This document shows, one piece after another, positions 47,679 to 64,000 of a DNA stretch of 64,000 nucleotides. The notes under the pieces were generated by a model. The model saw only the letters and a program-made list of their open reading frames with translations, searched no databases and was not told where the DNA came from. The stretch is from Oricola sp. (GTDB taxonomy: Bacteria; Pseudomonadota; Alphaproteobacteria; Rhizobiales; Rhizobiaceae): NCBI RefSeq assembly GCF_022763245.1, contig NZ_JALEGV010000011.1:124001-188000 (forward strand), read 5' to 3'. Both the position numbers and the translations under genes were made by a program. The first letter of the stretch is position 1. Each line of letters begins with the position of its first letter.

Positions 47679-48314
47679 TCAGGTAAGCACTGCGCCCAAT
47701 GCGAGCGCGCCGGCAGCGGTGACGGGATCGATGATGCGCAAGCCGGTCTCGGCTTCGAGCCGGGAACGCAGCGGGGACATGCCGGCGCAACCCAGCACGA
47801 CCGCTTCCGCTCCCATGCCCGACATCGCCGAGATCCGCTCGCATGCGAGGTCGAACACCTGATCGCCCGACCCCGAGGCCTCGGCGGAAACATCCGGCAG
47901 GGCCAGTTCGCCGGCCAGCCGCGACAGCACCCCCATCGCGCGCAATCGCCGGCGATGGCGGGCAATGGACCGCTCGGACAAGGCGAGAATTCCAAAGAGA
48001 TCGACCTGCGCGAGAGCGGCATATGTTCCCGCCTCCTGAATGCCTATGACCGGTTTCGCCGTCCTCTCCCGGGCGATTTCCACGCCTGGATCGGAGAAGC
48101 ATGCGCTGACATAGGCGTCGGCATCCGGCGTGCGGGAAACGAGATCGGCAAAGGCAAGCCCGGCTTGCGCAACATGCGCCGCCGTCGCGATCGTTGCCGG
48201 ACCATCCGGCACCTCCACCACATCGAAATGCGGCCCCAGGGGCGCGAGGGCGATGCGGATCGACGCCGTAACGGCCGTCGACGAATTGGGGTTCACCACC
48301 AGGATGCGGGGCAT
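47679..48314 (-). CDS. Hydantoin/allantoin racemase-family protein with both cysteines
   Basis: The 211-residue protein starts MPRILVVNPNSSTAVT, typical of hydantoin racemases, and has both catalytic cysteines, Cys72 in ACFSDPG and Cys176 in LGCAGMSPL. Such enzymes racemise 5-substituted hydantoins or allantoin so that a stereospecific hydantoinase can use both forms. Its ATG overlaps the stop of the hydantoinase-like gene by one base, the classical pairing. It differs from the single-Cys relative at 5402-6049. It is the last gene of the leftward operon that begins at 51156. Confidence 0.88.
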   Translation of the reverse strand: MPRILVVNPNSSTAVTASIRIALAPLGPHFDVVEVPDGPATIATAAHVAQAGLAFADLVSRTPDADAYVSACFSDPGVEIARERTAKPVIGIQEAGTYAALAQVDLFGILALSERSIARHRRRLRAMGVLSRLAGELALPDVSAEASGSGDQVFDLACERISAMSGMGAEAVVLGCAGMSPLRSRLEAETGLRIIDPVTAAGALALGAVLT

Positions 48315-49768
48315 CAGCGCAAACCGACACCGAAATTGCGGGCAGGGTCGAACTCGGAGAGGGCGACGCCCGGCCGCGCGCGAAGATCGACGGGAGCGCG
48401 CCCGAAGAAGCGACCCTGTCCTTCCGCAGCTTTCAGCGCGCCGTGTTCCACGACCACCTCGCCGCGGTTCATCACGATTTCCGGCCGGCCGGTGATCTCC
48501 ATCCCCTCGAAGGGCGTGTAGTCCATATTGTCGTGCTGGTCCGCGAGCGTCGCCGTCCAACGGGTCTCCGGGTTCCAGATCGCGATGTCGGCGTCCATGC
48601 CGGGCGCGATACGGCCTTTCTTCGTGCAGCCGAAGGTCCGCGCCGCATTGGTCGAGGTCAGCGCCACGAAGTCCTCGAGCCTGATCCGTCCGCCGACCAC
48701 GCCCTGCGAGAACAGGTAGGGCAGGCGCATGGCGATCCCGGGCATGCCGTTGGCGATCTTCGGATAGGGCGCGTCGCGGCCTGCGCCGAACTTGCCGCTG
48801 TCGTCGGCGCGGTACGGCGCATGGTCGGATGATACGCTCTCGAAGGTGCCCATGCGGACATGATGCCAAAGCGCGGACTGGGTTTCGGTGTCGCGCACGG
48901 GCGGCGAACAGATGAACTTCGCGCCCTCCATGCCGGGCCGGTCGAGATCGTTCCGCGTCAGAGCGAGATATTGCGGACAGGTTTCCGCATAGAGCTTCGC
49001 GCCACCGTATTTCTCGCGCCGCACGATCTCAGCGCCTTCCGGCGTGGACACATGCACGACGAACAACGGGGCATCGGCGAGCTTCGCCAATTGCACGGCG
49101 CGGTTGATCGCCTCGGCCTCGGCAAGAGCGGGCCTGGAAATGGCGTGATATTTCGGCGCGACAAGCCCTTGCGCCGCCAACTGCCGGTTCATCCATTTGA
49201 CCATCGCGTCGTTCTCGCAATGCACCATGGTCATGGCGCCGTGGGCGCGCGCGACGGTCAGGATGTCCAGCATGCCGGCATCGCCGAGATTGAGAAGATC
49301 GTAGGTCATGAAGACCTTGAACGATGTGACCCCCCGCTCGAACGCGCGCGGGAGCTGGTCCCTGAGAACCTCCTCGGTCGGATCGGAAACGATCAGATGG
49401 TAGGAATAGTCGATGACCGACCGCGCCGCGCGCGCATCATAGGTCTCGAGCACGTGGTCGATGGACTGGCCGCGATGCTGGGCGGCGAAGGGGATGAAGG
49501 AGGAATTGCCGCCGAATGCCGCCGAAATCGAGCCGGACAGATAGTCGTCCGCGGTCATCACGCCGGCCGCGCTTTCCTGGGCGATATGGGCGTGGGCCTC
49601 GATCCCGCCCGGCATGACGATGCGACCGCCGGCATCGATACGGCGCTCGCCTCCGGCGATCGTCTCGGCGACGGCGACGATGCGACCGTCCTTGATCGCG
49701 ATGTCACCGTCGAACAGGAAATCGGCTGTCGCGATCTGTCCCGAATGGATGACGATATCATGTTCCAT
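48314..49768 (-). CDS. Dihydropyrimidinase / hydantoinase-like cyclic amidohydrolase
   Basis: The 484-residue amidohydrolase has the binuclear metal site of the D-hydantoinase/dihydropyrimidinase/allantoinase group: GGIEAHAH (His59, His61), the carboxylated Lys151 in SFKVFMTYD, His183 in MVHCEND, His239 in VVHVST and Asp315 in SSDHAPY. Length is normal (about 460-490). It hydrolyses cyclic amides of five- or six-membered rings to carbamoyl amino acids. It is followed by a hydantoin racemase and preceded by two SDRs. Substrate is open: hydantoin, dihydropyrimidine or another cyclic imide/ureide. Confidence 0.93.
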   Translation of the reverse strand: MEHDIVIHSGQIATADFLFDGDIAIKDGRIVAVAETIAGGERRIDAGGRIVMPGGIEAHAHIAQESAAGVMTADDYLSGSISAAFGGNSSFIPFAAQHRGQSIDHVLETYDARAARSVIDYSYHLIVSDPTEEVLRDQLPRAFERGVTSFKVFMTYDLLNLGDAGMLDILTVARAHGAMTMVHCENDAMVKWMNRQLAAQGLVAPKYHAISRPALAEAEAINRAVQLAKLADAPLFVVHVSTPEGAEIVRREKYGGAKLYAETCPQYLALTRNDLDRPGMEGAKFICSPPVRDTETQSALWHHVRMGTFESVSSDHAPYRADDSGKFGAGRDAPYPKIANGMPGIAMRLPYLFSQGVVGGRIRLEDFVALTSTNAARTFGCTKKGRIAPGMDADIAIWNPETRWTATLADQHDNMDYTPFEGMEITGRPEIVMNRGEVVVEHGALKAAEGQGRFFGRAPVDLRARPGVALSEFDPARNFGVGLR

Positions 49769-49830
49769 GTGCGCTCTCCGTCGGGTTCAACCTGGTGCAA
49801 CCGCCCGCAATCGGCAGGCGGCGCCTCGCG

Positions 49831-50457
49831 TCAGACTTCACAATAATGCGGCGTTTGCGGATCCGCGATGGCCGCGAGAACGCGATCGACGGGATCGTGG
49901 CAACCCGTTTGCGCACCGGAGACCGAGACGACACACCGGCACCCCCAATCACGCCATTCCACCGCAAGATTGCGCCACATCTGGCGCAGGGCCGCCTTGG
50001 ATGTCTTGAGCGGAAAACCATGCGGCATCACGCTGGATCCGGTCACGCCGGCGTTTCCGACCAGCGCGACGATCGCGGGCGCCTCGCCCGCGGCGAGAGA
50101 GGGCTGAAGACAGGCGGCAAGGTGAAGGGGAGCATAGGTGTTGACCAGCATCGCTTCGACCAACAGGTCCCGCGTCAACTCCTCGGCGGGAAGATCGATG
50201 CCCTCGCGCGTTTCAGACGCGAAAACCACGGCATCGAGCGCCTCGGCGCCGAGGTGGTGGGCGAGATCCTCAGCTGCACCGTCCTTGAGAGGATCATAGG
50301 GCCATTCGACCGCCAGCGCAGCGCCCAGCGAGGCGCGAGCGGCATCGTCGAGCGGACGGGTGCCGGCGGCGAGGATTCTCCAGTCCGCGGCGGCGAACGC
50401 CCGCGCATGGGCCAGCCCCTGATCGGTATCGGCCCCGGTGATCAGAACTGTCGACAT
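49831..50457 (-). CDS. Short-chain dehydrogenase-like protein lacking the catalytic tyrosine
   Basis: The 208-residue protein has an SDR-type Rossmann start (VLITGADTDQGLA, with the glycine motif altered) and ends the core with FPLKTSKAALRQMW. In normal SDRs the tyrosine lies four residues before the lysine (YxxxK); here the lysine is Lys154 and that position is Leu150. The usual NAG and SS motifs are also not clear (FASETR, LVGNAGVTG). It may bind a nucleotide or act as a partner subunit rather than a classical oxidoreductase. It is co-transcribed with an intact SDR 24 bases upstream and the hydantoinase downstream. Confidence 0.75.
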   Translation of the reverse strand: MSTVLITGADTDQGLAHARAFAAADWRILAAGTRPLDDAARASLGAALAVEWPYDPLKDGAAEDLAHHLGAEALDAVVFASETREGIDLPAEELTRDLLVEAMLVNTYAPLHLAACLQPSLAAGEAPAIVALVGNAGVTGSSVMPHGFPLKTSKAALRQMWRNLAVEWRDWGCRCVVSVSGAQTGCHDPVDRVLAAIADPQTPHYCEV

Positions 50458-50481
50458 GTCCAGGCCCTCAAATCCAATGTC

Positions 50482-51156
50482 TCACCACGGCACGTCGCGC
50501 CCGTCATAGCCAATGATCCGACCGCTGTCGGATAGGCGCAGGCTCTCCACGACCCGGCACAGGCCGGCGACGCTTTCGGCGACCGGCAGGCCGCGATTGC
50601 CGGTCATCTCTGTGGCGACGAAGCCGGGCCGCAGCAGCGTGCAGGTGATGCCCTCCCCGGTCCATTCCCGCGCCAGCGCCGACCAGAGCGCGTTCAGCGC
50701 CGCCTTGGAGGCCCGATAGCTGTACTGGGTGCCCCAATCATTCGCAGAGACCGAGGACATCAGCGACGACATCGCGATCACTGTCTTCCGTTCGCTCGCA
50801 AGCACGTTGCGCTTCAGCGCGCAGGCAAGGCCGATCGGGCCCCAAAGATTGGTGGCGAAGACTTCCTTCATCTCGTCGGCGGCGACGTCCGCCGGCCCCG
50901 CCTCGAGATTGCGGGCAATTCCGGCATTGGCGAAGACGACGTCGATGGGCTCGCCCTCAAGGCGCTCGGCAAGCGCGTCCAGCGATGCCGGTTCGCTCGC
51001 GTCGAGTTCTTCGATCCGCGCGCCGGTCTCTCGCAGGGCGTCGGCCTGGTCGGGACGGCGCACCGTTCCGATCACCTGCCAACCCGCATTCCCGAACTGC
51101 CTCGCCATTTCGAGGCCGATGCCGCGGTTCGCGCCGGATATGAGAATGCTAGCCAC
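50482..51156 (-). CDS. Short-chain dehydrogenase/reductase, canonical
   Basis: The 224-residue protein has ILISGANRGIG (cofactor loop), FANAGIA, MSSLMSS and SYRASKAAL with the catalytic Tyr and Lys, so it is a regular SDR, probably NADP- or NAD-linked. The start is placed at GTG 51156: an ATG at 51216 would put the TTGGAATACCAA operator inside the gene. The ribosome binding site is weak. It heads the leftward operon SDR-SDR-hydantoinase-racemase. The likely role is reduction or oxidation of a keto/hydroxy intermediate. Confidence 0.88.
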   Translation of the reverse strand: MASILISGANRGIGLEMARQFGNAGWQVIGTVRRPDQADALRETGARIEELDASEPASLDALAERLEGEPIDVVFANAGIARNLEAGPADVAADEMKEVFATNLWGPIGLACALKRNVLASERKTVIAMSSLMSSVSANDWGTQYSYRASKAALNALWSALAREWTGEGITCTLLRPGFVATEMTGNRGLPVAESVAGLCRVVESLRLSDSGRIIGYDGRDVPW

Positions 51157-51185
51157 CGACTGCCACCCATTTGTTTGGTCTACTA

Positions 51186-51197
51186 TTGGAATACCAA
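51186..51197 (-). promoter_or_regulatory. GntR-type operator TTGGAATACCAA upstream of the SDR-hydantoinase operon
   Basis: The 12-mer differs by one base from the perfect palindrome TTGGTATACCAA found at 63364. It lies 30 bases before the SDR start. On the minus strand, TTGCGA and TATTCC with 17-base spacing form a possible promoter whose -10 box is inside the operator. Confidence 0.6.
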
Positions 51198-51398
51198 GCT
51201 TGCGCCGCGATCGCAACGCTTGGTTTCCGATTTTTTCGGCGACCGCCCACCCATCCTACAAGGTCGCGATAGCTAAGGAGAATCAAACAGTTGCTCTCTC
51301 GAGACGCTTCCAGCCCGCGCAATCCGTTCAGCGAGACGAGCCGGCCGCCGAGAAGATCATCATCGGAAATGGCGCTCAATTCTCTGGACGCGCCAATC

Positions 51399-51427
51399 TT
51401 GGCATTCTATTGGTATGCCATTATGAT
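51399..51427 (+). promoter_or_regulatory. Promoter with embedded operator upstream of the DapA-like gene
   Basis: TTGGCA (51399-51404) and TATGAT (51422-51427) with 17-base spacing make a good sigma-70-type promoter. Between the boxes lies TTGGTATGCCAT (51410-51421), a variant of the TTGGTATACCAA palindrome. A bound GntR dimer there would block polymerase. The DapA-like start lies about 130 bases downstream. Confidence 0.6.
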
Positions 51428-51564: not shown

Positions 51565-52491
51565 ATGCCACTGATCTCTTCCGAATCGCGCGGCGTCTTC
51601 GTCATCAGCGCCACCCCCTTCACCGACAATGGCAACCTCGACCTGCCGAGCCTCGAACGAGTCACCGATTTCTATATCGAGAAGGGCGCGGACGGACTGA
51701 CCTTGCTCGGCATGATGGGCGAGGCGCCGAAGCTGTCCGCCGAGGAAAGCCGGCAGGTCGTGCGAACGGCGATCGCGCGCGCGAACGAACTGCCGGTCAT
51801 CGTCGGCGTCTCAGCACCCGGTTTGGCCGCGCTGAGCGATCTCGCCGCCTTCTCCATGGACGCGGGCGCGGCCGGCGTGATGATCGCTCCGCCCACGGGT
51901 CTGGAAACCAACGAACAGATCATCGCCTATTTCAAGAATGCGGTCGAAGCGCTCGGCACGGACATTCCCGTCGTCTTGCAGGACTTTCCGCTATCGACCC
52001 GGGTGCACATCTCGGTCGCGACGCTCGGCACAATCATCGAGACTTGTCCCTCGATCGTCATGCTCAAGCACGAGGACTGGCCGGGGCTTGAAAAGGTCAC
52101 CGCGCTGCGCGCCGCGGAAGCCAATGGCCGGCGACGCATCTCGATCCTGTGCGGCAATGGCGGCATGTTCCTGCCCGAGGAAATGGGCCGCGGCGCCGAT
52201 GGCGCGATGACCGGTTTCGGCTATCCGGAGATGATGCGGGACGTCGTCGCGCTCGCCGCGAGCGGCGACATGGCGCGCGCCCAGGACATCTTCGACGCCT
52301 ATCTGCCCATGGTCCGCTACGAACAGCAGCCCGGCATCGGTTTGGCCATGCGCAAGCATGTCCTGCACAAGCGCGGCGCAATCGGGTCTCCGGTGTTGCG
52401 CAAACCGGGGGCCGGCCTTTCAGCCGAAGCTGTCGCAGAAGTCGATCGTCTGATGGCACGGCTTGATCGCAGGCTGGCGGAACTGAGCTGA
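51565..52491 (+). CDS. Dihydrodipicolinate synthase / N-acetylneuraminate lyase family protein, atypical active site
   Basis: This 308-residue class-I aldolase-type protein keeps the Schiff-base lysine Lys168 in VMLKHEDWPG. The partners of DapA are missing: the GTTGE motif reads GMMGE (49-53), the YNxP motif is QDFP (139-142), and the VxPYY motif is APPTG. It is therefore not a lysine-biosynthesis DapA but a lyase, aldolase or hydratase for another 2-oxo-acid-like substrate. It carries a TTGGTATGCCAT operator in its promoter and converges with the MFS-GntR pair. Co-regulation with the hydantoinase and nitrilase units suggests a step after ring opening. Confidence 0.88.
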   Translation: MPLISSESRGVFVISATPFTDNGNLDLPSLERVTDFYIEKGADGLTLLGMMGEAPKLSAEESRQVVRTAIARANELPVIVGVSAPGLAALSDLAAFSMDAGAAGVMIAPPTGLETNEQIIAYFKNAVEALGTDIPVVLQDFPLSTRVHISVATLGTIIETCPSIVMLKHEDWPGLEKVTALRAAEANGRRRISILCGNGGMFLPEEMGRGADGAMTGFGYPEMMRDVVALAASGDMARAQDIFDAYLPMVRYEQQPGIGLAMRKHVLHKRGAIGSPVLRKPGAGLSAEAVAEVDRLMARLDRRLAELS

Positions 52492-52501: not shown

Positions 52502-53932
52502 TCAGCCCTTGGCGGCGTAGCCTTCGAGCCGGCGCGCCGGCAGGAACGCGATCAGCAGCACGCAGATCCCCATCAGCACAGTCGGCACCATGGCCAGGAT
52601 GCCCGGCGCAACCTCGGTGCCGTCCGTCGTGCTCAATAGGCCGGACCAGAGCGCTGCGGCCCCGGCGAGCGTGACACCCAACGTTCCGCCCAATGACCGC
52701 AGGAAGGATTGCACGCCGATCGCCGCCCCTATCTGACCCGGTCCGGCGGAGTTCTGCACCACCAGCGTGAAGATCGGATAGAGAAGCCCTATCCCGAGAC
52801 CGAGCCCCACCACTGCAAGAAGCGCGGCGAAGAGCGGGACGGACCAGATGCCGAACAGGCAGAAGACCAGGGAGAAGGCGAAGGACAGAAACGCCGACAT
52901 GAGCATCATCGGCTTGTAGGCGGGGTTACGGCGCAGCAGCCGCGGCGGAATGTAGGCCCCCACCATGATGGCGCCGACAAAGGCGAGAAGCGCCACGCCG
53001 GCCGTGCCCGGATCGAGTCCGTAGACGGCTTGCAGCCAAATCGGCAGGTAGACGGCGAGCCCCAAATTGGACCCCTGCGCCATGGCAAGCGCAAGCGCGG
53101 TCAGAAGGATGGACCGGTCCGACATCACCGCCAGCGGCACGAGCGGATCGGCGGCGCTCCGGATGTGGCGCGCGAACAAACCCCAGAACGAGACAGCCGC
53201 GACCACCAGCACGAGTGTGCCGGCTTTTCCGAAATGCCCCTCGAGAAGAAGAATGGACGGGACCGCAGCGCACAGCAGAAACAGCGCGCCGACACCATCA
53301 AGCCGCCGCCCCTTGTGCGGCGCCCGCGGCGCCAGGGCCGAAGTCACGCCCCAGATCACGAGCGCGCAGGCCGGAAGATTGATCCAGAAAACCCAGCGCC
53401 AGTCGAGCCACGCGGCGACGACGCTGCCGGCCACCGGCCCGAGCAGACCCGCGACCGCGTAGATCGTCGAGATATACGCGCTGAACACCGCGCGACGGCG
53501 CATCGGAACGCGGTCGGCGACAATGATGAAGGGCAAGGCGACAAGACCGCCCGCCCCTGCGCCCTGCACGATCCGGGCGAGCACCAGCACTTCGAGGCCC
53601 GTGGCGAGCGCGCAGCCGAGCGAACCGGCGAGAAAGAGGCCGCAGCCGATCAGGAGCGCCTTGCGCCGGCCATGGATGTCGGCGACCGCGCCATAGAGCG
53701 GTGCGGCGACCGTGGAGGCCAGCAGGAACCCCGTGGTGATCCAGGGCACCAACGCGCCCTGCCCCAGATCGGTGAGAATGCCGCCGAGAACGGGGCCGAT
53801 GATGGTCTGCTCGAGTGCGGCGAGAAACAGCGCCAGCATGGCGGCGGCGAGAAGCCGCGGCGTGCCGGGCGCCAGCAGCGCGGCGAAGCGCGCCCGCAAT
53901 CCGGAAGCTGGCGGAGCCGGGTCAGCCGTCAA
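52502..53932 (-). CDS. MFS transporter, 14-helix (DHA2) type
   Basis: The 476-residue protein starts at TTG 53932, overlapping the gntR stop as TTGA; no good ATG exists before the first membrane segment. MFS motifs are LEQTIIGPVLGGIL, DIHGRRKALLIG (motif A) and VQGAGAGGLVALPFIIVADRVP (motif C-like). About fourteen membrane segments can be traced, as in proton-coupled efflux pumps of the DHA2 group. Translational coupling to gntR suggests it exports the inducer or a toxic intermediate of the same pathway. A longer arginine-rich extension toward 54199 is rejected. Confidence 0.9.
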   Translation of the reverse strand: MTADPAPPASGLRARFAALLAPGTPRLLAAAMLALFLAALEQTIIGPVLGGILTDLGQGALVPWITTGFLLASTVAAPLYGAVADIHGRRKALLIGCGLFLAGSLGCALATGLEVLVLARIVQGAGAGGLVALPFIIVADRVPMRRRAVFSAYISTIYAVAGLLGPVAGSVVAAWLDWRWVFWINLPACALVIWGVTSALAPRAPHKGRRLDGVGALFLLCAAVPSILLLEGHFGKAGTLVLVVAAVSFWGLFARHIRSAADPLVPLAVMSDRSILLTALALAMAQGSNLGLAVYLPIWLQAVYGLDPGTAGVALLAFVGAIMVGAYIPPRLLRRNPAYKPMMLMSAFLSFAFSLVFCLFGIWSVPLFAALLAVVGLGLGIGLLYPIFTLVVQNSAGPGQIGAAIGVQSFLRSLGGTLGVTLAGAAALWSGLLSTTDGTEVAPGILAMVPTVLMGICVLLIAFLPARRLEGYAAKG

Positions 53933-54615
53933 CGACGGATCCCGAGCAGATAATCGACGATGGCGTCGCGCACATGGTCGAGATGCTCGCCCATCAGCCG
54001 GCGCGACAGTTCGGGATCGGTGCCGGTGGTCGCGCGGATCAATTGCCGGTGTTCCTCGGCGCCGGGTACCAGACGGTGGGATATGCGCTTGGTGTTGAAG
54101 ATGTGGGTGCGCCGCCGCAGATCGAGGATGGACTGGGCGAGGACCGGATTGCCGGCGGCCTCGGCGATTGTGTGATGGACCATGTCGTCGACGGCCCAAT
54201 GCTGGGCCGCAGTGACCATGTTGGACTTCAGCAGGTTGTCGATCGCCGCCTCGACCTCGGCGCAGCGCTGGTGGGTGACCAGTCCGGTGGCACGGCCGGC
54301 CACCTCGACCTCAAGGATGCGACGCAGGTCGAGCAGGCGCACATAGGTTTCAAGCCCGATATCGGCGACCACGAGCTGGCGCTCCGGCCGGCGGATGATC
54401 AGTTCCTCTGCCTCCAGCCTGAACAGCGCCTCGCGAACGGGCGTGCGGGAAATCTCGAGCATCTGCGCCAGCCGCCGCTCCTGCAACGCGGCGCCGGGCC
54501 TCAATTCTCCCGCCAGCATCATGTCGAGCAGCCGCGTATAGGCGTAATCGGACAGGTGCCCCTCCCCCGAGAAGGCCTTGTTGTCATCCTCCGACCGCAG
54601 CGCTTGCGCATTCAT
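53929..54615 (-). CDS. GntR-family regulator, FCD subfamily (probable regulon repressor)
   Basis: The 228-residue protein has the GntR winged helix at about 22-85 (YAYTRLLDMMLAGELRPGAALQERRLAQMLEISRTPVREALFRLEAEELI) and an FCD domain with the metal histidines in DDMVHHTI, EEHRQLIRA and GEHLDHVRD. The ATG at 54615 has GGGAG upstream at a longer than usual distance. It faces the nitrilase gene across a region with a TTGGTATACCAT site and is coupled to an MFS gene. FadR-like regulators recognise such TNGTNNNACNA palindromes, so it is the best candidate to bind all copies of this site between 51 and 63.4 kb. Confidence 0.9.
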   Translation of the reverse strand: MNAQALRSEDDNKAFSGEGHLSDYAYTRLLDMMLAGELRPGAALQERRLAQMLEISRTPVREALFRLEAEELIIRRPERQLVVADIGLETYVRLLDLRRILEVEVAGRATGLVTHQRCAEVEAAIDNLLKSNMVTAAQHWAVDDMVHHTIAEAAGNPVLAQSILDLRRRTHIFNTKRISHRLVPGAEEHRQLIRATTGTDPELSRRLMGEHLDHVRDAIVDYLLGIRR

Positions 54616-54770: not shown

Positions 54771-54782
54771 TTGGTATACCAT
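54771..54782. promoter_or_regulatory. GntR-type operator TTGGTATACCAT upstream of nitrilase 1
   Basis: The site contains the perfect 10-bp palindrome TGGTATACCA (54772-54781) and lies 56 bases before the nitrilase ATG, between the divergent gntR and nitrilase genes. TTGACG at 54748-54753 may be a -35 box, although its spacing to TATACC is long. It may control both directions. Confidence 0.65.
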
Positions 54783-56064: not shown

Positions 56065-56106
56065 TTGAGCTTTGGTGTTTGACTGGTATACACCAGTGGC
56101 ATACCA
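56065..56106 (+). promoter_or_regulatory. Promoter and double operator upstream of the NMT1-type importer
   Basis: TTGAGC (56065-56070) and TATACA (56087-56092) with 16-base spacing form a plausible promoter. The -10 box lies within TGGTATACAC (56084-56093), part of the dyad ACTGGTATACACCAGT, and a second copy, TGGCATACCA (56097-56106), follows four bases later. Both resemble the TGGTATACCA operator seen at 54772 and 63365. Confidence 0.6.
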
Positions 56107-56159
56107 TCAGAATGCCGGAAGGCGAAAAGCAACGACTGCACAGCGAACAGGGTCTCAAG

Positions 56160-57164
56160 ATGAAGCTCAATTCCAAACTCAGCACAGCAATCGGCGCCAT
56201 GCTTTTGAGCATCGCCACGACCGTTCCCCCAACACTGGCGCAAGACCTGGAAGAGATGCGCCTGCGCCTCGCCTGGATCGCCGGCGGCGTGGACGCGCCC
56301 TTCTTCGTGGCGGCGGAGAAAGGCTATTTCAGCGATGCCGGCCTCGAGATCGACATCGTTGACGGCAACGGCTCGACCGGGACGATCCAGGCCGTCGGCA
56401 ACAAGGATTTCGAAATCGGCATCGCGGGTCTCGGCGCCCTCGCCCAGGCCCAGCAGGCCGCTGGCGCGAGCGACATCATCGCGGTGGCCGGACTGCTGCA
56501 GAAGGATCCGACCTCGATCATCAGCCTCAAGGGCTCCGGCATCACCGAGCCGAAGGACATCGAAGGCAAGAAGCTCGGCACCGACGCCGGCAACTTCGAG
56601 GACGGCATGATCAAGGCCTTCGCAGAGGCCAACGGCATCGACATGGACAAGGTCGAGGTCGTGATCATCAATGGCGGTGCCGACCGTGTGGCGCTGCTCA
56701 AGGGCGACGTCGATTTCATCAACGGCTGGGCCAATCCGGACGGCGACAAGGTCGCGGCCATGAAGCCCATCGAGCCGCCGATCCTGTTCGCCGATCACGG
56801 CGTGAACATCCTCGGCTCCTCGGTGATCGTGCGCAAGGACTTCCTGGCCGATCACGGCGATGCCGTCTCGGGCTTCCTCGGAGCGATCATCCAGGCCAAG
56901 GCCGAGGTTGACGCCGATCCGGAAGCCGCCCGCGACATCTTCATGAAGTACCGGCCCGACGCGGATCCCGAAGCGATCCTGGACCAGATCAAGACGATGG
57001 CGAAGTACGAGCACACCGCCCTGACCGAGGGCAAGCCCTACGGCGTGCTGGCACCGGAAGACATCGAACTGACCATTTCGCTTCTCGAGAAATACAGCGG
57101 CATGGAGCCGGGCCTGGCCCCCGACGCGATCTACACGGATGCCTACCTGCCGGCATCCGAATAA
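56160..57164 (+). CDS. NMT1/THI5-like ABC substrate-binding protein
   Basis: The 334-residue periplasmic protein starts at ATG 56160 (AGGGT upstream) with a signal peptide ending near PPTLA|QDLEEM. NMT1/THI5 and SsuA-like features are LRLAWIAGGVDAPFFVAAEKGYFSDAGLEIDIVDGNGS and TDAGNFEDGMIKAFAEANG. This family imports thiamine pyrimidines, sulfonates, nitrilotriacetate-like and aromatic N-compounds. It is followed by a strong terminator-like hairpin, then SDR, ATPase and permease genes. The double TGGTATACCA-type site in its promoter ties it to the GntR regulon. Confidence 0.9.
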   Translation: MKLNSKLSTAIGAMLLSIATTVPPTLAQDLEEMRLRLAWIAGGVDAPFFVAAEKGYFSDAGLEIDIVDGNGSTGTIQAVGNKDFEIGIAGLGALAQAQQAAGASDIIAVAGLLQKDPTSIISLKGSGITEPKDIEGKKLGTDAGNFEDGMIKAFAEANGIDMDKVEVVIINGGADRVALLKGDVDFINGWANPDGDKVAAMKPIEPPILFADHGVNILGSSVIVRKDFLADHGDAVSGFLGAIIQAKAEVDADPEAARDIFMKYRPDADPEAILDQIKTMAKYEHTALTEGKPYGVLAPEDIELTISLLEKYSGMEPGLAPDAIYTDAYLPASE

Positions 57165-57225: not shown

Positions 57226-58014
57226 ATGGATTTCGGACTATCCGGCAAGCATGCCCTTGTCACCGGCGCCAGTTCCGGCCTTGGCCTGGCGATCGCCACG
57301 GCGTTGCTCGCCGAAGGCGCGAGCGTCACGCTTGCCGCCCGCTCGCAAGACAAGCTGCAGGCCGCCATCGACGGCTTGCCCGACGGCCTCAAGCCGCTGG
57401 CCGACACCGTGCTGGCGGATTTCAACGATCCGCAGGTCGCCGAAACGCTCGCCACGGCCGCCCGCCGGCGCACAGGCGCAGTCGACATTGTCGTCGCCAA
57501 CACCGGCGGCCCGCCCCCCGGGCAGCCGAGCGGCATCAAGCCGGAGGTCATGAGCGCGCAATATGGCGCGATGGTCGACCCGGTTCTGCGCCTGACGCTC
57601 GACCTCTTGCCCGAGATGCGCGCGCGCAAGTGGGGTCGTATCCTCGCAGTGACATCGTCGGGCGTCATTCAACCGATCCCGCATTTGCCGATGTCGAACG
57701 CCCTGCGCGCGTCGGTGACCGCTTTCATGAAGACGCTGGCCGGAGAAGTCGCCAGGGACGGCGTCACAGTGAATGTCATCGCCCCCGGCCGCATCGGCAC
57801 GGCGCGCACGACGCAGCTCGACCGGAACGCCGCTGAACGATCGGGACAGCCCGTCGAAGAGGTCGCCGCCGCCTCGGCCGCCTCGATACCGGCCGGGCGT
57901 TACGGCACGCCGGAAGAATTCGGCGCAGTCGCCGCCTTCCTGGCCAGCACCCAGGCCAGCTACGTCACCGGCAGCATCATTCGGGTCGACGGAGGCGCAA
58001 TCCGCTCGATCTGA
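57226..58014 (+). CDS. SDR-fold protein lacking both catalytic Tyr and Lys
   Basis: The 262-residue protein has an intact cofactor loop, LVTGASSGLG (residues 11-20), and TSSG (143-146), but where classical SDRs have YxxSK it reads LPMSNALR: Leu154 and Asn158 replace Tyr and Lys, and Arg161 follows. An FabG-like subgroup with this SNxxR pattern is known; its chemistry is poorly defined. It lies between the importer binding-protein and ATPase genes, unusual for an enzyme, which suggests that it acts directly on the imported compound. The start ATG 57226 follows AAGAGA. Confidence 0.82.
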   Translation: MDFGLSGKHALVTGASSGLGLAIATALLAEGASVTLAARSQDKLQAAIDGLPDGLKPLADTVLADFNDPQVAETLATAARRRTGAVDIVVANTGGPPPGQPSGIKPEVMSAQYGAMVDPVLRLTLDLLPEMRARKWGRILAVTSSGVIQPIPHLPMSNALRASVTAFMKTLAGEVARDGVTVNVIAPGRIGTARTTQLDRNAAERSGQPVEEVAAASAASIPAGRYGTPEEFGAVAAFLASTQASYVTGSIIRVDGGAIRSI

Positions 58015-58079: not shown

Positions 58080-58901
58080 ATGAACATGATGACACAGACC
58101 ATGGCCGAGGTCGCCGAAGGCGATCCGCACATCCGCATCGAGAATGTGAGCAAGACCTTTCTCGGCGGCAAGAAAGGCGACGTGGAGGCGCTTCGCCCGG
58201 TCAGCCTCGACATCAGGCGCGGAGAGTTCGTGTCCGTGCTCGGACCGTCGGGCTGCGGAAAATCCACCCTTCTGATGCTCCTGTCCGGCCTTCTCGATCC
58301 GACGGCCGGGCGCATCACGATCGACGGTGAACAGGTCAGCGGCCCGAACTCCAATCTCGGCATCGTCTTCCAGCAGGACGTCCTGCTCGACTGGCGCGGC
58401 GCGCTCGACAACATCCTGCTGCAGGCCGAAATCCGCGGCGCCGACATGAAGGCGGCCGAGGCGAAGGCCCGCGAACTGCTGGAAATGGTCTCGCTCACCG
58501 GTTTCGAGGATGCCTATCCGAGGGAGCTGTCGGGCGGCATGCGGCAGCGCGTCTCGATCTGCCGCGCCCTCCTGCACGAGCCGCCGCTGCTGCTGATGGA
58601 CGAGCCCTTCGGCGCGCTGGACGCGATGACCCGCGACCAGCTCCAGATCGACCTGATGCATCTGTGCGCAAAGCGCGACATCACGGTCTTCTTCATCACC
58701 CACTCGATCCCGGAAGCGATCTTCCTGTCGGATCGCGTGGTGGTGATGAAACCGCGCCCGGGGCGCATCGAGCAGGTGCTCGACATCGACCTGCCGCGCC
58801 CGCGCCGCCTGGCCATGCGCGAGGATCCGAAATTCACCGGCTATGTGCGCGAACTGACGCAAACCTTCAAATCGCTCGGCGTGTTTAGAGAGGAACACTG
58901 A
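58080..58901 (+). CDS. ABC transporter ATPase (SsuB/TauB/ThiZ type)
   Basis: The roughly 273-residue ATPase has Walker A GPSGCGKS (55-62), the LSGGMRQR signature, Walker B LLLMDEP and the FFITHSIPEA switch region. DWRGALDNILLQAE is typical of the nitrate/taurine/thiamine-precursor class. Possible starts are GTG 58050 and ATGs at 58080, 58086 and 58089; 58080 is a compromise, as none has a strong ribosome binding site. It is three bases from the permease gene and completes the importer that begins with the NMT1-type protein. Confidence 0.92.
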   Translation: MNMMTQTMAEVAEGDPHIRIENVSKTFLGGKKGDVEALRPVSLDIRRGEFVSVLGPSGCGKSTLLMLLSGLLDPTAGRITIDGEQVSGPNSNLGIVFQQDVLLDWRGALDNILLQAEIRGADMKAAEAKARELLEMVSLTGFEDAYPRELSGGMRQRVSICRALLHEPPLLLMDEPFGALDAMTRDQLQIDLMHLCAKRDITVFFITHSIPEAIFLSDRVVVMKPRPGRIEQVLDIDLPRPRRLAMREDPKFTGYVRELTQTFKSLGVFREEH

Positions 58902-58903: not shown

Positions 58904-59722
58904 ATGTCCGCAATCCCCGACCAGCCGATCCGCGCACGCAACGAGATGCTGCATCGTGTCGTGACCTTCATGCCGCCGGCGTTCTGGACCCTCGTCTGCC
59001 TGATCATCTTCTGGCAAGCCGTCGTCACGCTGCGCAATGTGCCGGAATACATCCTGCCCGCCCCGACACAGATCGCGGGCGAGATCGGCTCCTATTGGCA
59101 TCGTCTGCTGCCCAACGCGCTGGTCACGCTGAGCGAGATCGCGCTGGGCTATTCGCTCGCGGTGCTCATCGCGATTCCGCTGGCTGTCTCGATCGTCTAT
59201 TCGCGCGTGATCCGCCGCGCCGTCTACCCGCTGATCGTGCTCAGCCAGACCGTGCCGAAAGTCGCCGTCGCGCCGCTGCTTCTCACCTGGTTCGGCTACG
59301 GCATGACGCCGAAGATCGTCATCGTCATCATGATGTCCTTCTTCCCGATCGTCATCAACTCTGTGATGGGTCTGCGGGCGACGACGCCGGAAATGCTCTA
59401 CCTGGCCAAATCGATGGGCGCGAATGGCTGGCAGATCTTCTGGAAGTTCCGCCTGCCGAAGGCGCTTCCGAGCGTCTTCGCCGGCCTGCGCCTCGCCACG
59501 GTGCTATCGGTGATCGGCGCGATCATCGCGGAGTTCATCGGCACCGACAAGGGGCTCGGCTACCTGATCCTCATCGCCGGCGCCAATTTCGACATCGCCC
59601 GGCAGTTCGCGGCGATCATCATCATCACCATCATTGGAATGGGCTTCTTCGGCCTGATCTCTTGGTTGGAACGGACGATGATCCCGTGGCGCGAGCAGAC
59701 CGAGATCGCCGGCGAGGGCTGA
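58904..59722 (+). CDS. ABC transporter permease (SsuC/TauC/ThiX type)
   Basis: The 272-residue permease has six or so membrane segments, EYILPAPTQIAGEIGSYW after the first helix, and the coupling loop LAKSMGANGWQIFWKFRLPKALPSVFAGLR, both characteristic of this class, followed by GAIIAEFIGTDKGLGYLI. It begins three bases after the ATPase stop. A near-perfect 14-bp terminator follows, so this unit ends here. Homodimeric assembly is likely, as only one permease gene is present. Confidence 0.93.
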   Translation: MSAIPDQPIRARNEMLHRVVTFMPPAFWTLVCLIIFWQAVVTLRNVPEYILPAPTQIAGEIGSYWHRLLPNALVTLSEIALGYSLAVLIAIPLAVSIVYSRVIRRAVYPLIVLSQTVPKVAVAPLLLTWFGYGMTPKIVIVIMMSFFPIVINSVMGLRATTPEMLYLAKSMGANGWQIFWKFRLPKALPSVFAGLRLATVLSVIGAIIAEFIGTDKGLGYLILIAGANFDIARQFAAIIIITIIGMGFFGLISWLERTMIPWREQTEIAGEG

Positions 59723-59861: not shown

Positions 59862-59895
59862 GTCTCAAACGGTTGATGACAGAGGGAGAACCGCG

Positions 59896-60894
59896 TCAGA
59901 TATCGAGAACCAGCCGGTCCGACAGGGCGCGCGAACAACAGATCATCATCGTTCTGCCACGCGCCTTCTCGCTTTCGGACAGAAGCTGGTCGCGATGATC
60001 CGGCTGGCCCTCCAGCACGCGAGTCTCGCAAGTGCCGCAGACGCCCGACTGGCAGGAATAGGCGACCCGTATCCCGGCCTCGTGCAGGACCTCCATGATG
60101 GTGCGGCCTTCCGGAATGAAGAGCTCCTTGCCGGAGCGGCGCAATTCGACCGTGAAGCCGCCGCCCGACAGGTCGGCGTCACCGGCAAAGCGTTCCAGAT
60201 GGACGCAATCGGGCGGCAGATCCGCGCAGGCGACCTCGTAGGCGTCCAGCATCGGCGCCGGCCCGCAGGCATAGAGATGGGCGCCGGCAGGCGCCTGCGC
60301 CACGCAGGTGGCGGGGTCGAGATGCGCGCCGCCGTTCTCGTCGTCGAAATGGTATTGCACGCGTCCCCGGTCGCCATCCAGCGCCTCGAGTTCCGGCAGA
60401 TAGGCCGCATCGGCGCGGCTGCGCGCGGCGTAGATCAGACGCCAGGCCGCGCCGCAGGCCTCGCGGTGACGGATCATCGACAGGATCGGCGTTATGCCAA
60501 TGCCACCGGCGATGAAAATCGATTCAGCCGCGTCGGCGGCCATGGGGAAGGTGTTGCGGGCAAGCGTCACGCGCAGCAATTCGCCGACACGCAGACTGTC
60601 GCACATATAGGCGGAGCCGCCCTGGCTGTCGGGCGCGCGGCGAACGGCGACGCAATAGGCGTCGCGGCGATCGGGGCCGTTGGTCAGCGAGTAGCTGCGA
60701 ACGAGATCGCCCGGCAATTCGATATCGACATGGCCGCCCGGCTCGATGCCGGGCAGCGTGCCGCCCGGGACGGGCAGGCAGAATTCGATCTCGCGGATGT
60801 CCGGCGCACGCCAGCGGATGGCCTGCACGCGCATCATCATCGATGCGTGGCCGGTCTCGCCCGGATTGCCGGGAACCGCGAAATGCTCCGTCAT
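59896..60894 (-). CDS. Phthalate-dioxygenase-reductase / VanB-type oxidoreductase
   Basis: The 332-residue protein passes electrons from NAD(P)H to the oxygenase. The order is an FMN domain (RSYSLTNGP, about 80-88), an NAD domain (IFIAGGIGITPILSMI, about 129-144; YACGPAPMLDAY) and a C-terminal plant-type [2Fe-2S] domain with YSCQSGVCGTCETRVLEG and a final cysteine in MICCSRA. This domain order is that of phthalate dioxygenase reductase and VanB. It starts at ATG 60894, overlapping the oxygenase stop as ATGA. It ends the operon that begins with nitrilase 2. Confidence 0.94.
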   Translation of the reverse strand: MTEHFAVPGNPGETGHASMMMRVQAIRWRAPDIREIEFCLPVPGGTLPGIEPGGHVDIELPGDLVRSYSLTNGPDRRDAYCVAVRRAPDSQGGSAYMCDSLRVGELLRVTLARNTFPMAADAAESIFIAGGIGITPILSMIRHREACGAAWRLIYAARSRADAAYLPELEALDGDRGRVQYHFDDENGGAHLDPATCVAQAPAGAHLYACGPAPMLDAYEVACADLPPDCVHLERFAGDADLSGGGFTVELRRSGKELFIPEGRTIMEVLHEAGIRVAYSCQSGVCGTCETRVLEGQPDHRDQLLSESEKARGRTMMICCSRALSDRLVLDI

Positions 60895-62225
60895 TCGGCG
60901 GGTTCTTTCGGCGCGACATAGCCCTTGATGCGGGCCATCACCTCCTCGTAACCCTCGAGCCAGTCCGTGCCCTTCGGCACGATCATGTCGCCGCCGCGGG
61001 CCTCGCGCGCATATTCGGGACGGTCGACGAACTCCGGCAACATCTTCTCGTCGCGCCACGCCAGTGCGGCGTCGAGCATGACGCGGCGGGTGAGGACGAC
61101 CATGCGGTCGGAAGCGGCGAGGTGCTCGAGCGTCCGGTCAACGACGTGGCCCATGCTCTCCTGGATCGCCTGGTCCTGCAGCGGGATGCCGACGATGCCG
61201 GTGTAGCTGCCGCCCGAACGCTGCCATTCGCGGTCGATGCCGTAATCGTTGGTGGCATCCTTCACCGGCCGCCAGCGGCCTTTCCAGTCGGTCGTGGTCG
61301 GCAGGTATTCGAGCGGTCGGGCGAGCCCTTCCACAGGCGTGCCGTCCTTGTATTTCAACGCCTTCTTGCCGCCGCCGGCGGCGCGGCTGAGGTCGATGTT
61401 GAAGATCATCGTCGACTCGTCGTCGATCGGCACCCAGGCGTTCACCGTCTTGCTTTCCTCAAGCCCCCCGCCACCGGGATAGGTGACCCAGAAGGGGAAG
61501 AGGTAGCAGGCGTAACGCTGGTGTTCCGTGCCCTCATAGGCGTTGCGCTGGGCCGAATACATCGTGCCGAAATTGGTTTCGGTCACGTTGATCTTCGGCG
61601 CCTTCTCGGTGACCGTGAAGGCCTCGGGATCCGAGAGGTCAAGACGTTCGCCATCGACACCACCGACATGCAAAAACCCCAGATGCGAGGTGTCGATGTC
61701 GCCTTCCAGTGCCTGCATGTAATTGCAGTCACGGTGGGTCAGCGCGATATTTCGCTCGTCGCCCTCGCCCATGATAGCGTTGATTTCCGGGAGCGGCGGC
61801 GGATTGTCCTGGCGCTCACCGAAATAGGCGAAGACGAGGCCGCCCGACTCGCAGGTCTTGTAGGCATAGGCCGGCGTGCCGGCAGGGTATTTGGTCTTGT
61901 CTTCGAGATTGGGCTGGTCGAGGCACTTGCCCGTCACATCGAACTTCCAGCCGTGATAGGCGCAGCGGATGCCGCCCTGCTCGTTGCGCCCGAAGAACAG
62001 CGAGGCGCAGCGGTGCGGGCAGCGATGATCCATGATGCCGACGCGGCCTTCGGTGTCGCGGAAACCGACAAGCTTCTCGCCGAGGATCATGAGACGGACG
62101 GGGTCGCCGTCTGCGACGAGTTCGGACGACAGGCACACGGGAACCCAGAACTGACGGAAGAACTCTCCCATCAGTGTGCCCCGTCCGACGCTGCACAGGT
62201 CTATATTCTCTTCTGCTGTGATCAT
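60891..62225 (-). CDS. Rieske non-heme iron oxygenase, phthalate 4,5-dioxygenase-like
   Basis: The 444-residue oxygenase has a Rieske centre at Cys69-x-His71 and Cys88-x2-His91 (CPHRC and CAYHGWKF) and the mononuclear iron site Asp178, His181 and His186 in DTSHLGFLH. The N-terminus (TLMGEFFRQFWVPVCLSSEL) resembles phthalate 4,5-dioxygenase. This family hydroxylates aromatic rings or removes N- or O-methyl groups. It lies ten bases after the nitrilase gene, upstream of its reductase. With the nearby amidohydrolases, an N-heteroaromatic, aromatic nitrile or N-methyl substrate is plausible, but not determined. Confidence 0.94.
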   Translation of the reverse strand: MITAEENIDLCSVGRGTLMGEFFRQFWVPVCLSSELVADGDPVRLMILGEKLVGFRDTEGRVGIMDHRCPHRCASLFFGRNEQGGIRCAYHGWKFDVTGKCLDQPNLEDKTKYPAGTPAYAYKTCESGGLVFAYFGERQDNPPPLPEINAIMGEGDERNIALTHRDCNYMQALEGDIDTSHLGFLHVGGVDGERLDLSDPEAFTVTEKAPKINVTETNFGTMYSAQRNAYEGTEHQRYACYLFPFWVTYPGGGGLEESKTVNAWVPIDDESTMIFNIDLSRAAGGGKKALKYKDGTPVEGLARPLEYLPTTTDWKGRWRPVKDATNDYGIDREWQRSGGSYTGIVGIPLQDQAIQESMGHVVDRTLEHLAASDRMVVLTRRVMLDAALAWRDEKMLPEFVDRPEYAREARGGDMIVPKGTDWLEGYEEVMARIKGYVAPKEPAE

Positions 62226-62234
62226 GTGTCTCTC

Positions 62235-63323
62235 CTAGAGTTCAACGGTGGATTCCGGCTCGGCCGACCCGGCGGCAAGCGGTTCGAGCACGCCCGCGTT
62301 CTCGAGATTGACGCGGGACCGCGCGATCGCCGGCGCGATCTGGCTCACGTCGGTCATCGGCGCGTCGAGAAAGGCGTCGGCGGGATAGAAGCGCGCCGCT
62401 TCGTAGTACGGCACGTACATTTCGAATCGGGCCCGAAGGAGCGGGTTCGACAGGCCGGTATCGGCTCGGCGGTCATGGCGCAGCGCAGCGATGTCGATCA
62501 TCGCGGATACGGCGGTGCTTTCCTCCGCATCCTCCTGATAGGCGAGCGTATTCCCCTGGTGGTCGAGGATGTGGGAACGCCCGCCGAGGAGGGACCCGTC
62601 TGGCGAAAATCCGATCGGCCCGGCGACGTTGGCCGACACCATGCAGGTCATGTTCTCGGCGATCCGCGCGATCTTCGCCGCCTCCTGCGACGCCGAATAG
62701 CGCGAATTGGTCGGATGCAGGATCACCTCGGCGCCCTGCATCATCATGACACGCGCGACCTCGGGAACGCTGATCTCGCCGCAGGCGACGACGCACAGCT
62801 TGCCGAGCGGCGTGTCGGCCACTGGGAAGACCTCTTCCATCGGCGTCTGTTCGAGATAGGCCGTGCGGAAATCGTGAACCGAGGGGAAGGCCGCCGTGTT
62901 CACCCGCCGGTAGCGCAGGATGACCTCGCCATCGGGACCGATGATGAAGGAGGTGTTGAAATAGCGCCCCGGCCATTCGTCCGGCGCCTCGAAGGCGTTA
63001 CCGGCGATGTAGATGCCCTTGCGCCGGGCGAGATCCTGCAGGGGCTCCGTCAACCAGCCCGGGACGGGTGAGCAGGCCCGTTCGATCCACTGGCCGACCG
63101 GCATGCCGAGCGGCGGCCCCTGCATCCCGAACTCAGGAAAGACGACGAGATCCGGCGGCGTATCCGACGCGCAGGCCTGCTCGATGAGACCGACAAGGCG
63201 CGCCTGGTTGCGTGCGATGACCTGCCGGGCCTCGGCCGTGTCGGAGGCCTGGCTGGCGCGCTCGCTCTTCATCTGGATGCAGGTCGCCCGCCACGGTTTC
63301 GGTGCGTTCTGTCCAGTGGTCAT
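62235..63323 (-). CDS. Nitrilase-superfamily C-N hydrolase 2 (Lys replaced by Arg)
   Basis: The 362-residue enzyme is a clear paralogue of the one at 54838-55863, colinear along the whole length (WRATCIQ, PEFGMQGPP, AGNAFEAP, LRYRRVNTA, CGEISVPE). Glu64 and Cys181 are present; the lysine position is again arginine (Arg140). ATG 63323 has GGAGACTG upstream. It heads the operon nitrilase-Rieske oxygenase-reductase, whose promoter has a perfect TTGGTATACCAA palindrome 40 bases before the start. The two nitrilases may act on successive or alternative intermediates of one pathway. Confidence 0.92.
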   Translation of the reverse strand: MTTGQNAPKPWRATCIQMKSERASQASDTAEARQVIARNQARLVGLIEQACASDTPPDLVVFPEFGMQGPPLGMPVGQWIERACSPVPGWLTEPLQDLARRKGIYIAGNAFEAPDEWPGRYFNTSFIIGPDGEVILRYRRVNTAAFPSVHDFRTAYLEQTPMEEVFPVADTPLGKLCVVACGEISVPEVARVMMMQGAEVILHPTNSRYSASQEAAKIARIAENMTCMVSANVAGPIGFSPDGSLLGGRSHILDHQGNTLAYQEDAEESTAVSAMIDIAALRHDRRADTGLSNPLLRARFEMYVPYYEAARFYPADAFLDAPMTDVSQIAPAIARSRVNLENAGVLEPLAAGSAEPESTVEL

Positions 63324-63363
63324 GCGCAGTCTCCGGGTTCGTCGGCAGACTGATTGCCCACCA

Positions 63364-63375
63364 TTGGTATACCAA
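63364..63375. promoter_or_regulatory. Perfect GntR-type operator TTGGTATACCAA upstream of the nitrilase 2 operon
   Basis: This 12-bp perfect palindrome lies 40 bases before the nitrilase 2 ATG and about 230 bases before the divergent gntR gene. It is the clearest copy of the site that recurs at 51186, 51410, 54771, 56084 and 56097. Confidence 0.7.
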
Positions 63376-63602
63376 CAATGATCTATCAACTGCGCGGCGA
63401 TTGCAAGGCCGCAACATCACGAAATGCGCATTGACGGGAGAAACGGCAGACCCTGATTTGTGGGGAAACAACCTGAAAGCGATGTCGCCGGGCGCATCTT
63501 CGCGTGACATACGACTGGAATACGGTGCAAACACCATGACCACTCGCGCGCAAAGCCCGACGGCACCGTGCGTCGAAGGTCAACCGTACGAAGAGGATCC
63601 GC

Positions 63603-64000
63603 CATGACCGAGGTTTCACCGATATCCGCCGCCGGCGAAGGCGCGAAACCGAATCTCACGGAACAGGTCTACGACAAGCTGATCCAGATCCTGATCAGCG
63701 GAGAACTGCGGCCCGGCGACGTGATCGTGGAACGCAAGATCGCCGAACGGCTGAACGCGTCGCGCACCCCCGTGCGTGAGGCGCTCGGGCGCCTCGAAGC
63801 CGAACGGCTGGTGTTCAAGCAGCCCAATCGCGGCGTGACAGTCAGCCCGTTTTCGACCGAGGCCCTGCTGGAAATTCTAAATGTACGCCAACTGCTCGAG
63901 GCGGAGGCGGCTCGGTTGGCGGCGGGGAGGCTGTCGGCGTCGAAGGTCGAACAAATACGCGACCGCATCATCGAACTCGGCAAGCAGAGCACGGTCAGCC
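63603..64000 (+). CDS. GntR-family regulator, cut by the window end
   Basis: The first 132 or so codons are present. The protein has a winged helix at about 16-85 (NLTEQVYDKLIQILISGELRPGDVIVERKIAERLNASRTPVREALGRLEAERLV) and the start of an FCD-type helical domain (LLEILNVRQLLEAEAARLAAG). ATG 63603 is preceded by AGAGGATCC. It is divergent from the nitrilase 2-Rieske operon and is the second GntR of this region; its recognition helix (ASRTPVREALGRLE) is nearly the same as in the regulator at 53929 (ISRTPVREALFRLE), so the two may share operators. Confidence 0.9.

Follow-up and report, generated by a model that had tools for sequence, protein, structure and literature searches.

Background

Regulators that join a GntR DNA-binding domain to an FCD domain are described (PMC4494728) as binding palindromes of TKGT and ACMA boxes, and GntR families are known from the same source to have additional weaker boxes, at 7-12 nt from the centre of the site. 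The same domain set, the same kind of palindrome and the same kind of weaker boxes recur at the right-hand end of a 64,000-nt stretch of DNA from Oricola sp. (contig NZ_JALEGV010000011.1; hereafter the window), in a gene cluster that probably forms one regulon for the breakdown of an N-heterocycle under two FadR-type GntR proteins, GntR1 and GntR2. From the systems described there the cluster differs in its target genes, in having two paralogous regulators and in the fixed 11-bp pitch of its boxes. Three further published systems bear comparison. Corynebacterium glutamicum likewise has two GntR-type proteins, also named GntR1 and GntR2, that are said to co-ordinate one catabolic set (PMC2230225), but theirs is gluconate catabolism together with glucose uptake, and the likeness is one of description. 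The gene sets controlled by the NMT1 motif, a xanthine riboswitch, bring together NMT1-type transporters, Rieske dioxygenases, and 8-hydroxyguanine-type deaminases in purine oxidation (PMC7373994) in a way that recalls the cluster, but they are riboswitch-controlled, and the Rieske protein of the cluster is of the LigXa_C kind. The riboflavin/lumichrome lum pathway (PMC12746152) also dismantles an N-heterocycle with a xanthine-oxidase-type enzyme, a Rieske oxygenase and hydrolases; it was set aside because no P450, thiamin-dependent decarboxylase or catechol dioxygenase is found among the annotated cluster genes. Finally, the hydantoinase process employs a racemase, a hydantoinase and an N-carbamoylase, and candidates for all three classes lie in the window; the cluster differs in adding a Rieske oxygenase and an importer, and in nitrilase-like (nit) proteins that bear Arg at the Lys position.

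Among the matches listed from the openly licensed literature, we found no description of this gene set or of this operator and, for homarine in combination with Rieske enzymes, no fitting paper. The shape of the motif and the FadR type of GntR regulator are already known; the gene set, the joint duplication of regulators and targets, the 11-bp box pitch and the Arg-bearing hydrolases appear to be new. The shared operator, which recurs in diverse alphaproteobacteria, delimits, from sequence alone, a gene set across Rhizobium, Devosia, Kaistia and marine relatives, and makes of vague annotations (nitrilase, Rieske, SDR, DapA) one testable unit. The cluster is also a likely example of a regulator and a target gene duplicating together, and it brings to notice a conserved CN_hydrolase branch with an altered triad.

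A shared operator in the cluster and its relatives

A sequence-only reading of the window had proposed that five transcription units share a palindromic site, and the clustering on which it was founded is real. Allowing up to two mismatches, TTGGTATACCAA matches four times in the window (51186, 51410, 54771 and 63364) against 0.17 expected, a count reached by none of 100 shuffles. The relaxed core TGGNATNCCA is found at seven places in 81 kb (the window and the next 17 kb of the contig): once at 11169 and six times in the cluster, at 51187, 51411, 54772, 56097 (where TGGCATACCA matches the core), 63365 and, past the window end, 64406. Positions beyond 64000 are window-equivalent and continue along the same contig (stretch L013). 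Sites do precede the five units that had been named, but there are at least six units, the NIPSNAP-RidA unit following the site at 64406; of the pair of sites reported at 56084 and 56097, the second stands as an operator and the first is a flanking box (6/8). Genome-wide (5.63 Mb), TGGNATNCCA occurs at 37 places, and the same pattern reversed at 5. Five of the 37 have the strict form TGGYATRCCA, and all five lie inside the 13-kb cluster (C32:175411-188406), where the sixth promoter, that of sdrA, bears TGGAATACCA instead.

The strict form was selected only after the sites had been seen, so we derived a matrix (matrix 1) from 65 sites in related loci, which had themselves been chosen by means of the core found in the window. 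Over the 81 kb its top six matches are exactly the six cluster sites, with scores of 22.7 to 13.9, and the seventh scores 10.9, at 75793; fifteen simulated 81-kb stretches gave, in total, two matches that scored as high as the sixth site or higher. Elsewhere in the genome, in 43.7 kb picked for relaxed matches, the best score was 13.0, for a match between two open reading frames in a region with a recombinase-like gene. Three other relaxed genomic matches that were inspected (lpxC-ftsZ, a recombinase-like region and an ABC/efflux gap, the gene names being readings of translations) do not resemble the cluster.

A search with both nitrilase-like proteins gave 34 related loci on 33 contigs (L028 and L042 share one), scanned as contig stretches and drawn from Celeribacter, Pseudooceanicola, Roseisalinus, Tropicimonas, Maritimibacter, Alloyangia, Devosia, Rhizobium, Neorhizobium, Shinella, Kaistia, Mesorhizobium, Faunimonas, Pelagibacterium, Peristeroidobacter and several bins. 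Gene order is largely conserved: RidA, nips, (ErtD-like amidohydrolase), gntR2, nit2, rieske, red, (dapA), ABC, sdrC, nmt1, (deaminase), nit1, gntR1, the genes in brackets being present in some loci only. Within the source organism's own family nit2 was found at E 1e-40 in one of 297 genomes, that of the window, although roseobacter-type genera turn up in another genome collection; plasmid records contained neither a nit2 relative at E 1e-60 nor a close match for a 101-base piece. Rieske matches at E 1e-130 occur in five of 385 genomes, the window's own included, the other four at 48-52% identity; the one of these four places that was inspected adjoins a different kind of gene, judging from its translation.

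Leaving aside L054, which had no cluster hit, the other 33 loci (593 kb) contain 82 matches to TGGNATNCCA; for six control palindromes the counts are 4, 2, 20, 1, 9 and 0. Sites were counted in the 400 bp before each gene, window included, in rows that overlap because divergent genes share sites. They precede nit2 in 28 of 36 cases, gntR2 in 27 of 29, gntR1 in 16 of 19, nit1 in 15 of 18 and nmt1 in 15 of 24; nips has them in 9 of 26, dapA in 3 of 17 and sdrA in 1 of 14. Inner genes have few or none (rieske 0/31, red 0/29, abcP 0/29, sdrC 3/24, abcA 4/34), and the MFS gene none (0/7). A second matrix, made from 62 nit2, nit1 and nmt1 sites and used at a threshold of 8.5, gave 149 matches in the 34 loci, its training sites included: 140 lie at most 350 bp before a cluster gene, one inside a gene and eight elsewhere, against 14 matches in reversed DNA and 13 to 24 in five block shuffles. 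It adds two promoter regions that are absent from its training set: the nips/ErtD-like intergenic region, with a TTGGTACACCA form in 12 loci, and the dapA-sdrA gap, where four Rhizobiales loci have a TGGTATACCG form. The sequence-only reading had suggested examining conservation and random occurrence: the sites stand before the same genes in relatives, most weakly for the sdrA unit, and by control patterns and reversed or shuffled DNA they are not scattered, either in the genome or in the related loci.

Some observations sit less comfortably with a single set of conserved operators. The sdrA site at 51187 is without an exact counterpart before sdrA in relatives, the one case in 14 being the window itself, and what four Rhizobiales loci have at that position is only the variant TGGTATACCG; in L027, which has hydantoinase and racemase orthologues, there is no match within 350 bp before the hydantoinase gene. 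The putative site of the sdrA-hydantoinase-racemase unit thus has the weakest support of the six, in the form of its score and flanking box. Moreover, common ancestry links the related loci, and one contig bears both L028 and L042, so the counts are not independent.

Two regulators and one set of sites

Both GntR1 and GntR2 have the FadR-subfamily domains (PF00392 and PF07729) above cut-off. The near-identity of their recognition helices, which had been offered as evidence, proves little: the SRTPVREAL helix is near-universal in FadR-type proteins. Nor do the two genes flank the units, as had been thought; both are present, but gntR1 is internal to the cluster and gntR2 is close to the right-hand end. 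The subfamily palindrome NyGTM-N0-1-KACNy, with its TKGT/ACMA boxes, is fitted by TGGT-AT-ACCA, in which a 2-nt gap separates GT from AC. UxuR recognizes a closely similar sequence. Against the NCBIfam equivalogs, GntR1 and GntR2 remain below cut-off, at 26.4 and 44.5 of 442 for UxuR and 28.5 and 42.3 of 396 for ExuR, and their scores to the NanR model are likewise far below cut-off. In the searched text of one UxuR paper (PMC9369180) the letters of the motif were not found.

What ties the proteins to the sites is their joint occurrence. With a gntR hit defined as 40% identity and 90 bits, every one of the 30 loci in which gntR1 or gntR2 was hit contains TGGNATNCCA, 28 of them as TGGYATRCCA, and the four loci with no such hit (L037, L039, L051 and L054) have none. 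The nit2 proteins of L037 and L039 are at 61-62% identity, as are those of L035, L036 and L038, where gntR and sites are both present; the missing sites are thus not explained by distance alone. It tempers this contrast that a locus here counts as lacking gntR when the stretch scanned gave no hit, and that L037 and L039 are short. Site conservation, genome distribution and the co-occurrence with gntR support the regulon that had been proposed, and it is very likely that GntR1 and GntR2 run it.

The same evidence makes it barely credible that the palindrome is a common core-promoter element, a -10 box of the TATAC type, and not an operator. The core does include TAT-AC and stands near promoter-like hexamers, but it is palindromic and has flanking boxes at 11 bp, its strict form is restricted to the cluster in the genome, and the four loci with no gntR hit have none.

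More serious, if still unlikely, is the suggestion that only one GntR protein uses the sites, the other binding an operator of its own or being in the course of loss, and that the motif is common by ancestry and not by joint control. L041 has a single gntR (nearest gntR1, 49%), and in L028, L032, L035, L036, L038 and L053 only gntR2 was found in the stretch scanned, yet the core is present in all of them. Against this, a partner may sit outside the stretch, and L042, which has gntR1, is on the contig of L028; in many loci both genes lie near each other, and the divergent promoter of each has a site, and boxes at an 11-bp pitch would give space for more than one dimer. Control by both proteins remains the preferred reading. 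GntR1 and GntR2 are 41% identical and Nit1 and Nit2 51%; in trees labelled by best match to the window proteins, one branch splits gntR1 from gntR2 for all 42 sequences (support 0.73) and another splits nit1 from nit2 for 55 of 56 (support 0.94). From these splits we infer a joint duplication, in which the divergent gntR-nit pair seems to have been copied as a unit before the cluster spread.

Operator layout and the direction of control

Scoring of eight fixed bases at every offset, with a background mean of 1.96-1.98, reveals a regular layout around the operators. The 65 sites of relatives have peaks at +11 (mean 5.28/8, z 11.4) and -11 (4.42, z 8.5), the six sites of the window peak at +11 (mean 5.5/8, z 6.8) with 5 or 6 of 8 at every site, and the flanking boxes are visible by eye in aligned promoters. 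A pitch of 11 bp is about one helical turn and would fit the binding of a further dimer. Three results detract from this regularity and from its relation to promoters: the sites of relatives have smaller peaks at +16, +10 and +22 (z 3.8, 3.4 and 2.9), the -11 boxes of the window are weak (mean 3.33/8, z 2.6), with 7/8 before dapA and 1 to 4 elsewhere, and a scan for promoter hexamers found three matches against 1.8 expected.

Repression is quite likely to prevail over activation, and its simplest reading is the blocking of promoters. The dapA operator lies within the spacer of a promoter-like TTGGCA-17-TATGAT (51399-51427), the nmt1 operator overlaps a -10-like TACCAT (TTGACT-17-TACCAT, 56079-56107), and the nit2 operators of relatives, in the 28 rows listed, stand 16-65 bp ahead of the start codon, with starts placed by alignment. 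That the GntR proteins are instead activators or dual regulators, as FadR itself is, seems improbable; some nmt1, nit1 and nips operators are 50-130 bp from the start codon, where activation would be possible, but the distances before nit2 and the position of sites 51411 and 56097 within promoter-like hexamer pairs argue for repression. GntR1 and GntR2, whose genes are each divergent from one of the paralogous C-N hydrolase genes, would accordingly be pictured as binding TGGYATRCCA-like operators that overlap the promoters of the units or sit just downstream of them. The weaker boxes at 11 bp, on one side or on both, probably allow cooperative binding of a further dimer. When substrate is lacking they would repress, and an intermediate bound by their FCD domains would bring about release.

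Nitrilase-like hydrolases with an altered triad

The two nit proteins contain the CN_hydrolase domain PF00795 (E 2.6e-32 and 5e-26). The catalytic triad of the nitrilase superfamily is Glu-Lys-Cys; Nit1 and Nit2 retain Glu and Cys, and have Arg aligned to the Lys of formamidase and of N-carbamoyl-D-amino acid amidohydrolase. This replacement, found in all 56 sequences of the window and related loci (a 57th entry, a wrongly framed open reading frame, was set aside), is why we call the proteins nitrilase-like. Among the matches listed from the openly licensed literature there was no report of a branch with a Lys-to-Arg triad. The best-scoring models, all of them well short of their cut-offs, are those for N-carbamoylputrescine amidase and formamidase, and PDB matches are N-carbamoyl-D-amino acid amidohydrolases and formamidases. 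Aromatic nitriles, listed among the candidate substrates in the sequence-only reading, are not favoured because the closest models are amidase and formamidase and the linked enzymes point to a cyclic amide, a ureide or a purine-like ring.

Substrate and pathway

The enzymes of the cluster suggest what is taken up and broken down. Among solved relatives of nmt1 is the pyrimidine-binding 3ix1 (E 1.2e-9), and the Rieske protein, of the LigXa_C kind, is nearest to chains named phthalate 4,5-dioxygenase or Rieske domain protein. The cyclic amidohydrolase of the window exceeds the D-hydantoinase cut-off and adjoins a hydantoin racemase, and in 20 related loci an amidohydrolase related to hydantoinases lies inside the cluster. 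The one ErtD-like member tested (L048:1489-2841) scores 485.5 bits to NF058538, below its cut-off of 600, and is closest to the hydantoin-5-propionate enzyme of ergothioneine use. A deaminase-family gene (8-oxoguanine/triazine hydrolase family), missing from the window, is present in seven loci: between nmt1 and nit1 in L023, L024, L025, L043 and L044, between nmt1 and gntR1 in L030, and as a deaminase-like gene in or near the cluster in L032 (2568-4076); that of L043 matches 8-oxoguanine deaminase and triazine hydrolases, below all cut-offs. In L030, xdhA and xdhB are above the xanthine dehydrogenase cut-offs, and the same gene families occur in L024 and L029. The xanthine dehydrogenase genes stand beside the cluster in these three Devosia loci (L024 2837-6707, L029 3165-6963, L030 3093-6945). 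The Peristeroidobacter locus L041 has a flavin amine oxidase, a cytochrome c-abhydrolase protein and a TonB-dependent receptor in the cluster (2273-8833), and these extra genes do not easily fit a purine route. The hydantoinase, ErtD-like, xanthine dehydrogenase and deaminase genes, taken with the misfit of L041, therefore led us to place the substrate, tentatively and at slightly less than even odds, among N-heterocycles broken down via a hydantoin- or ureide-like stage (of the hydantoin, purine or pterin kind), and none is named.

Several facts pull the other way. The genome of the window lacks an ErtD-like orthologue, the closest protein reaching 30%; the nearest deaminase homologue there (44%) is on contig C9, in which TGGNATNCCA does not occur. 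Only one of the three xdhA genes has a strong site before it (L030, 13.0); in L024 a pair of weak boxes (2.2 and 3.9, spaced by 11 bp) was found by eye, and in L029 nothing. Xanthine riboswitch control was rejected, no Rfam family reaching its gathering score in the 44-64 kb part of the window and 7 of the 34 related loci.

The variable make-up of the cluster also raises the question of whether its units belong to several separate pathways, such as a hydantoin unit and an aromatic-acid unit, with a common regulator. We regard this as distinctly unlikely. The sdrA-hydantoinase-racemase and MFS parts do vary among relatives, nips-gntR2-nit2-rieske-red-ABC-nit1-gntR1 being more constant, but the amidohydrolase of 20 related loci lies inside the cluster, and dapA and sdrA retain sites in other loci.

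On the preferred reading of a single pathway, the induced set would comprise the NMT1-type ABC importer, the Rieske oxygenase and its reductase, a cyclic amidohydrolase (a hydantoinase with a racemase in the window, in many relatives an amidohydrolase of the ErtD-like kind), a pair of carbamoylase/amidase-like hydrolases, a RidA-like protein, a DapA-type lyase and SDR enzymes. We infer an order of steps in which an N-heterocycle would be imported, oxygenated and opened hydrolytically via a hydantoin- or ureide-like intermediate, after which nitrogen would be removed and the carbon skeleton passed to central metabolism. It is possible, though doubtful, that this amounts to an undescribed pathway in which Rieske oxygenation feeds a hydantoin/ureide route ended by a pair of Glu-Arg-Cys hydrolases, with two co-duplicated repressors acting on two- or three-box operators of 11-bp pitch as cooperating, possibly mixed, dimers.

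Gene map and surroundings

Table 1. Genes and putative operators of the cluster (positions beyond 64000 are window-equivalent).
Feature	Position	Strand	Evidence or remark
Asp/Glu/hydantoin racemase	47679..48326	-	PF01177 E 1.3e-48; no NCBIfam match
D-hydantoinase/dihydropyrimidinase	48314..49768	-	TIGR02033 494.9 bits (cut-off 393.25); NF009941 715 (cut-off 647)
SDR protein 2	49831..50457	-	PF00106
SDR protein 1 (sdrA), first in its unit	50482..51156	-	start taken as GTG 51156; PF13561/PF00106 (scan from 51153)
Putative operator TGGAATACCA before sdrA	51187..51196	.	matrix rank 6 in 81 kb; +11 box 6/8
Putative operator TGGTATGCCA before dapA	51411..51420	.	boxes -11 (7/8), +11 (5/8)
DapA-family lyase	51565..52491	+	PF00701; nearest solved chain 3dz1, 346 bits
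MFS transporter, start approximate	52502..53930	-	PF07690
gntR1, FadR-type regulator (GntR + FCD)	53929..54615	-	PF00392, PF07729
Putative operator TGGTATACCA between gntR1 and nit1	54772..54781	.	+11 box 6/8
nit1, CN_hydrolase-domain protein, Arg at catalytic Lys position	54838..55863	+	PF00795
Flanking box TGGTATACAC, -13 from main nmt1 site	56084..56093	.	6/8 core positions
Putative operator TGGCATACCA before nmt1	56097..56106	.	+11 box 5/8
NMT1-type solute-binding protein (nmt1)	56160..57164	+	PF09084
SDR (sdrC)	57226..58014	+	PF13561
ABC ATPase	58083..58901	+	PF00005
ABC permease	58904..59722	+	PF00528
Flavin/ferredoxin reductase adjoining Rieske oxygenase	59896..60897	-	PF00111, PF00175
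Rieske oxygenase with LigXa_C domain	60891..62225	-	PF00355, PF19301; 7fhr 236.2 bits
nit2, nit1 paralogue (51%), same Arg	62235..63323	-	PF00795
Putative operator TGGTATACCA between nit2 and gntR2	63365..63374	.	+11 box 5/8
gntR2, FadR-type regulator	63604..64000, continues to 64281	+	PF00392, PF07729
Sixth putative operator, past window end, before NIPSNAP-RidA unit	64406	.	core match
NIPSNAP protein (nips)	64446-65060		outside window
RidA-like protein	65057-65518		TIGR00004 31.2 bits (cut-off 106); 3d01 120 bits

The solved chain nearest to the DapA-family lyase, 3dz1, is named only as dihydrodipicolinate synthase, and the MFS gene adjoins gntR1 in several relatives too. To the left of the cluster, a gene at 45701-46405 encodes a protein close to the PRK07475 model (206.6 bits, cut-off 231) and adjoins genes for an amino-acid ABC binding protein and, from translation, an AsnC-like regulator. 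To the right, after the regulon, the stretch at 65553-81000 (L013 3553-19000) has TctA and TctC transporter genes together with, from their translations, genes for an acyl-CoA ligase, enoyl-CoA hydratases, a CoA transferase, an FAD-linked oxidase and an acyl-CoA dehydrogenase; its best operator-like match is the one at 75793 given above (10.9).

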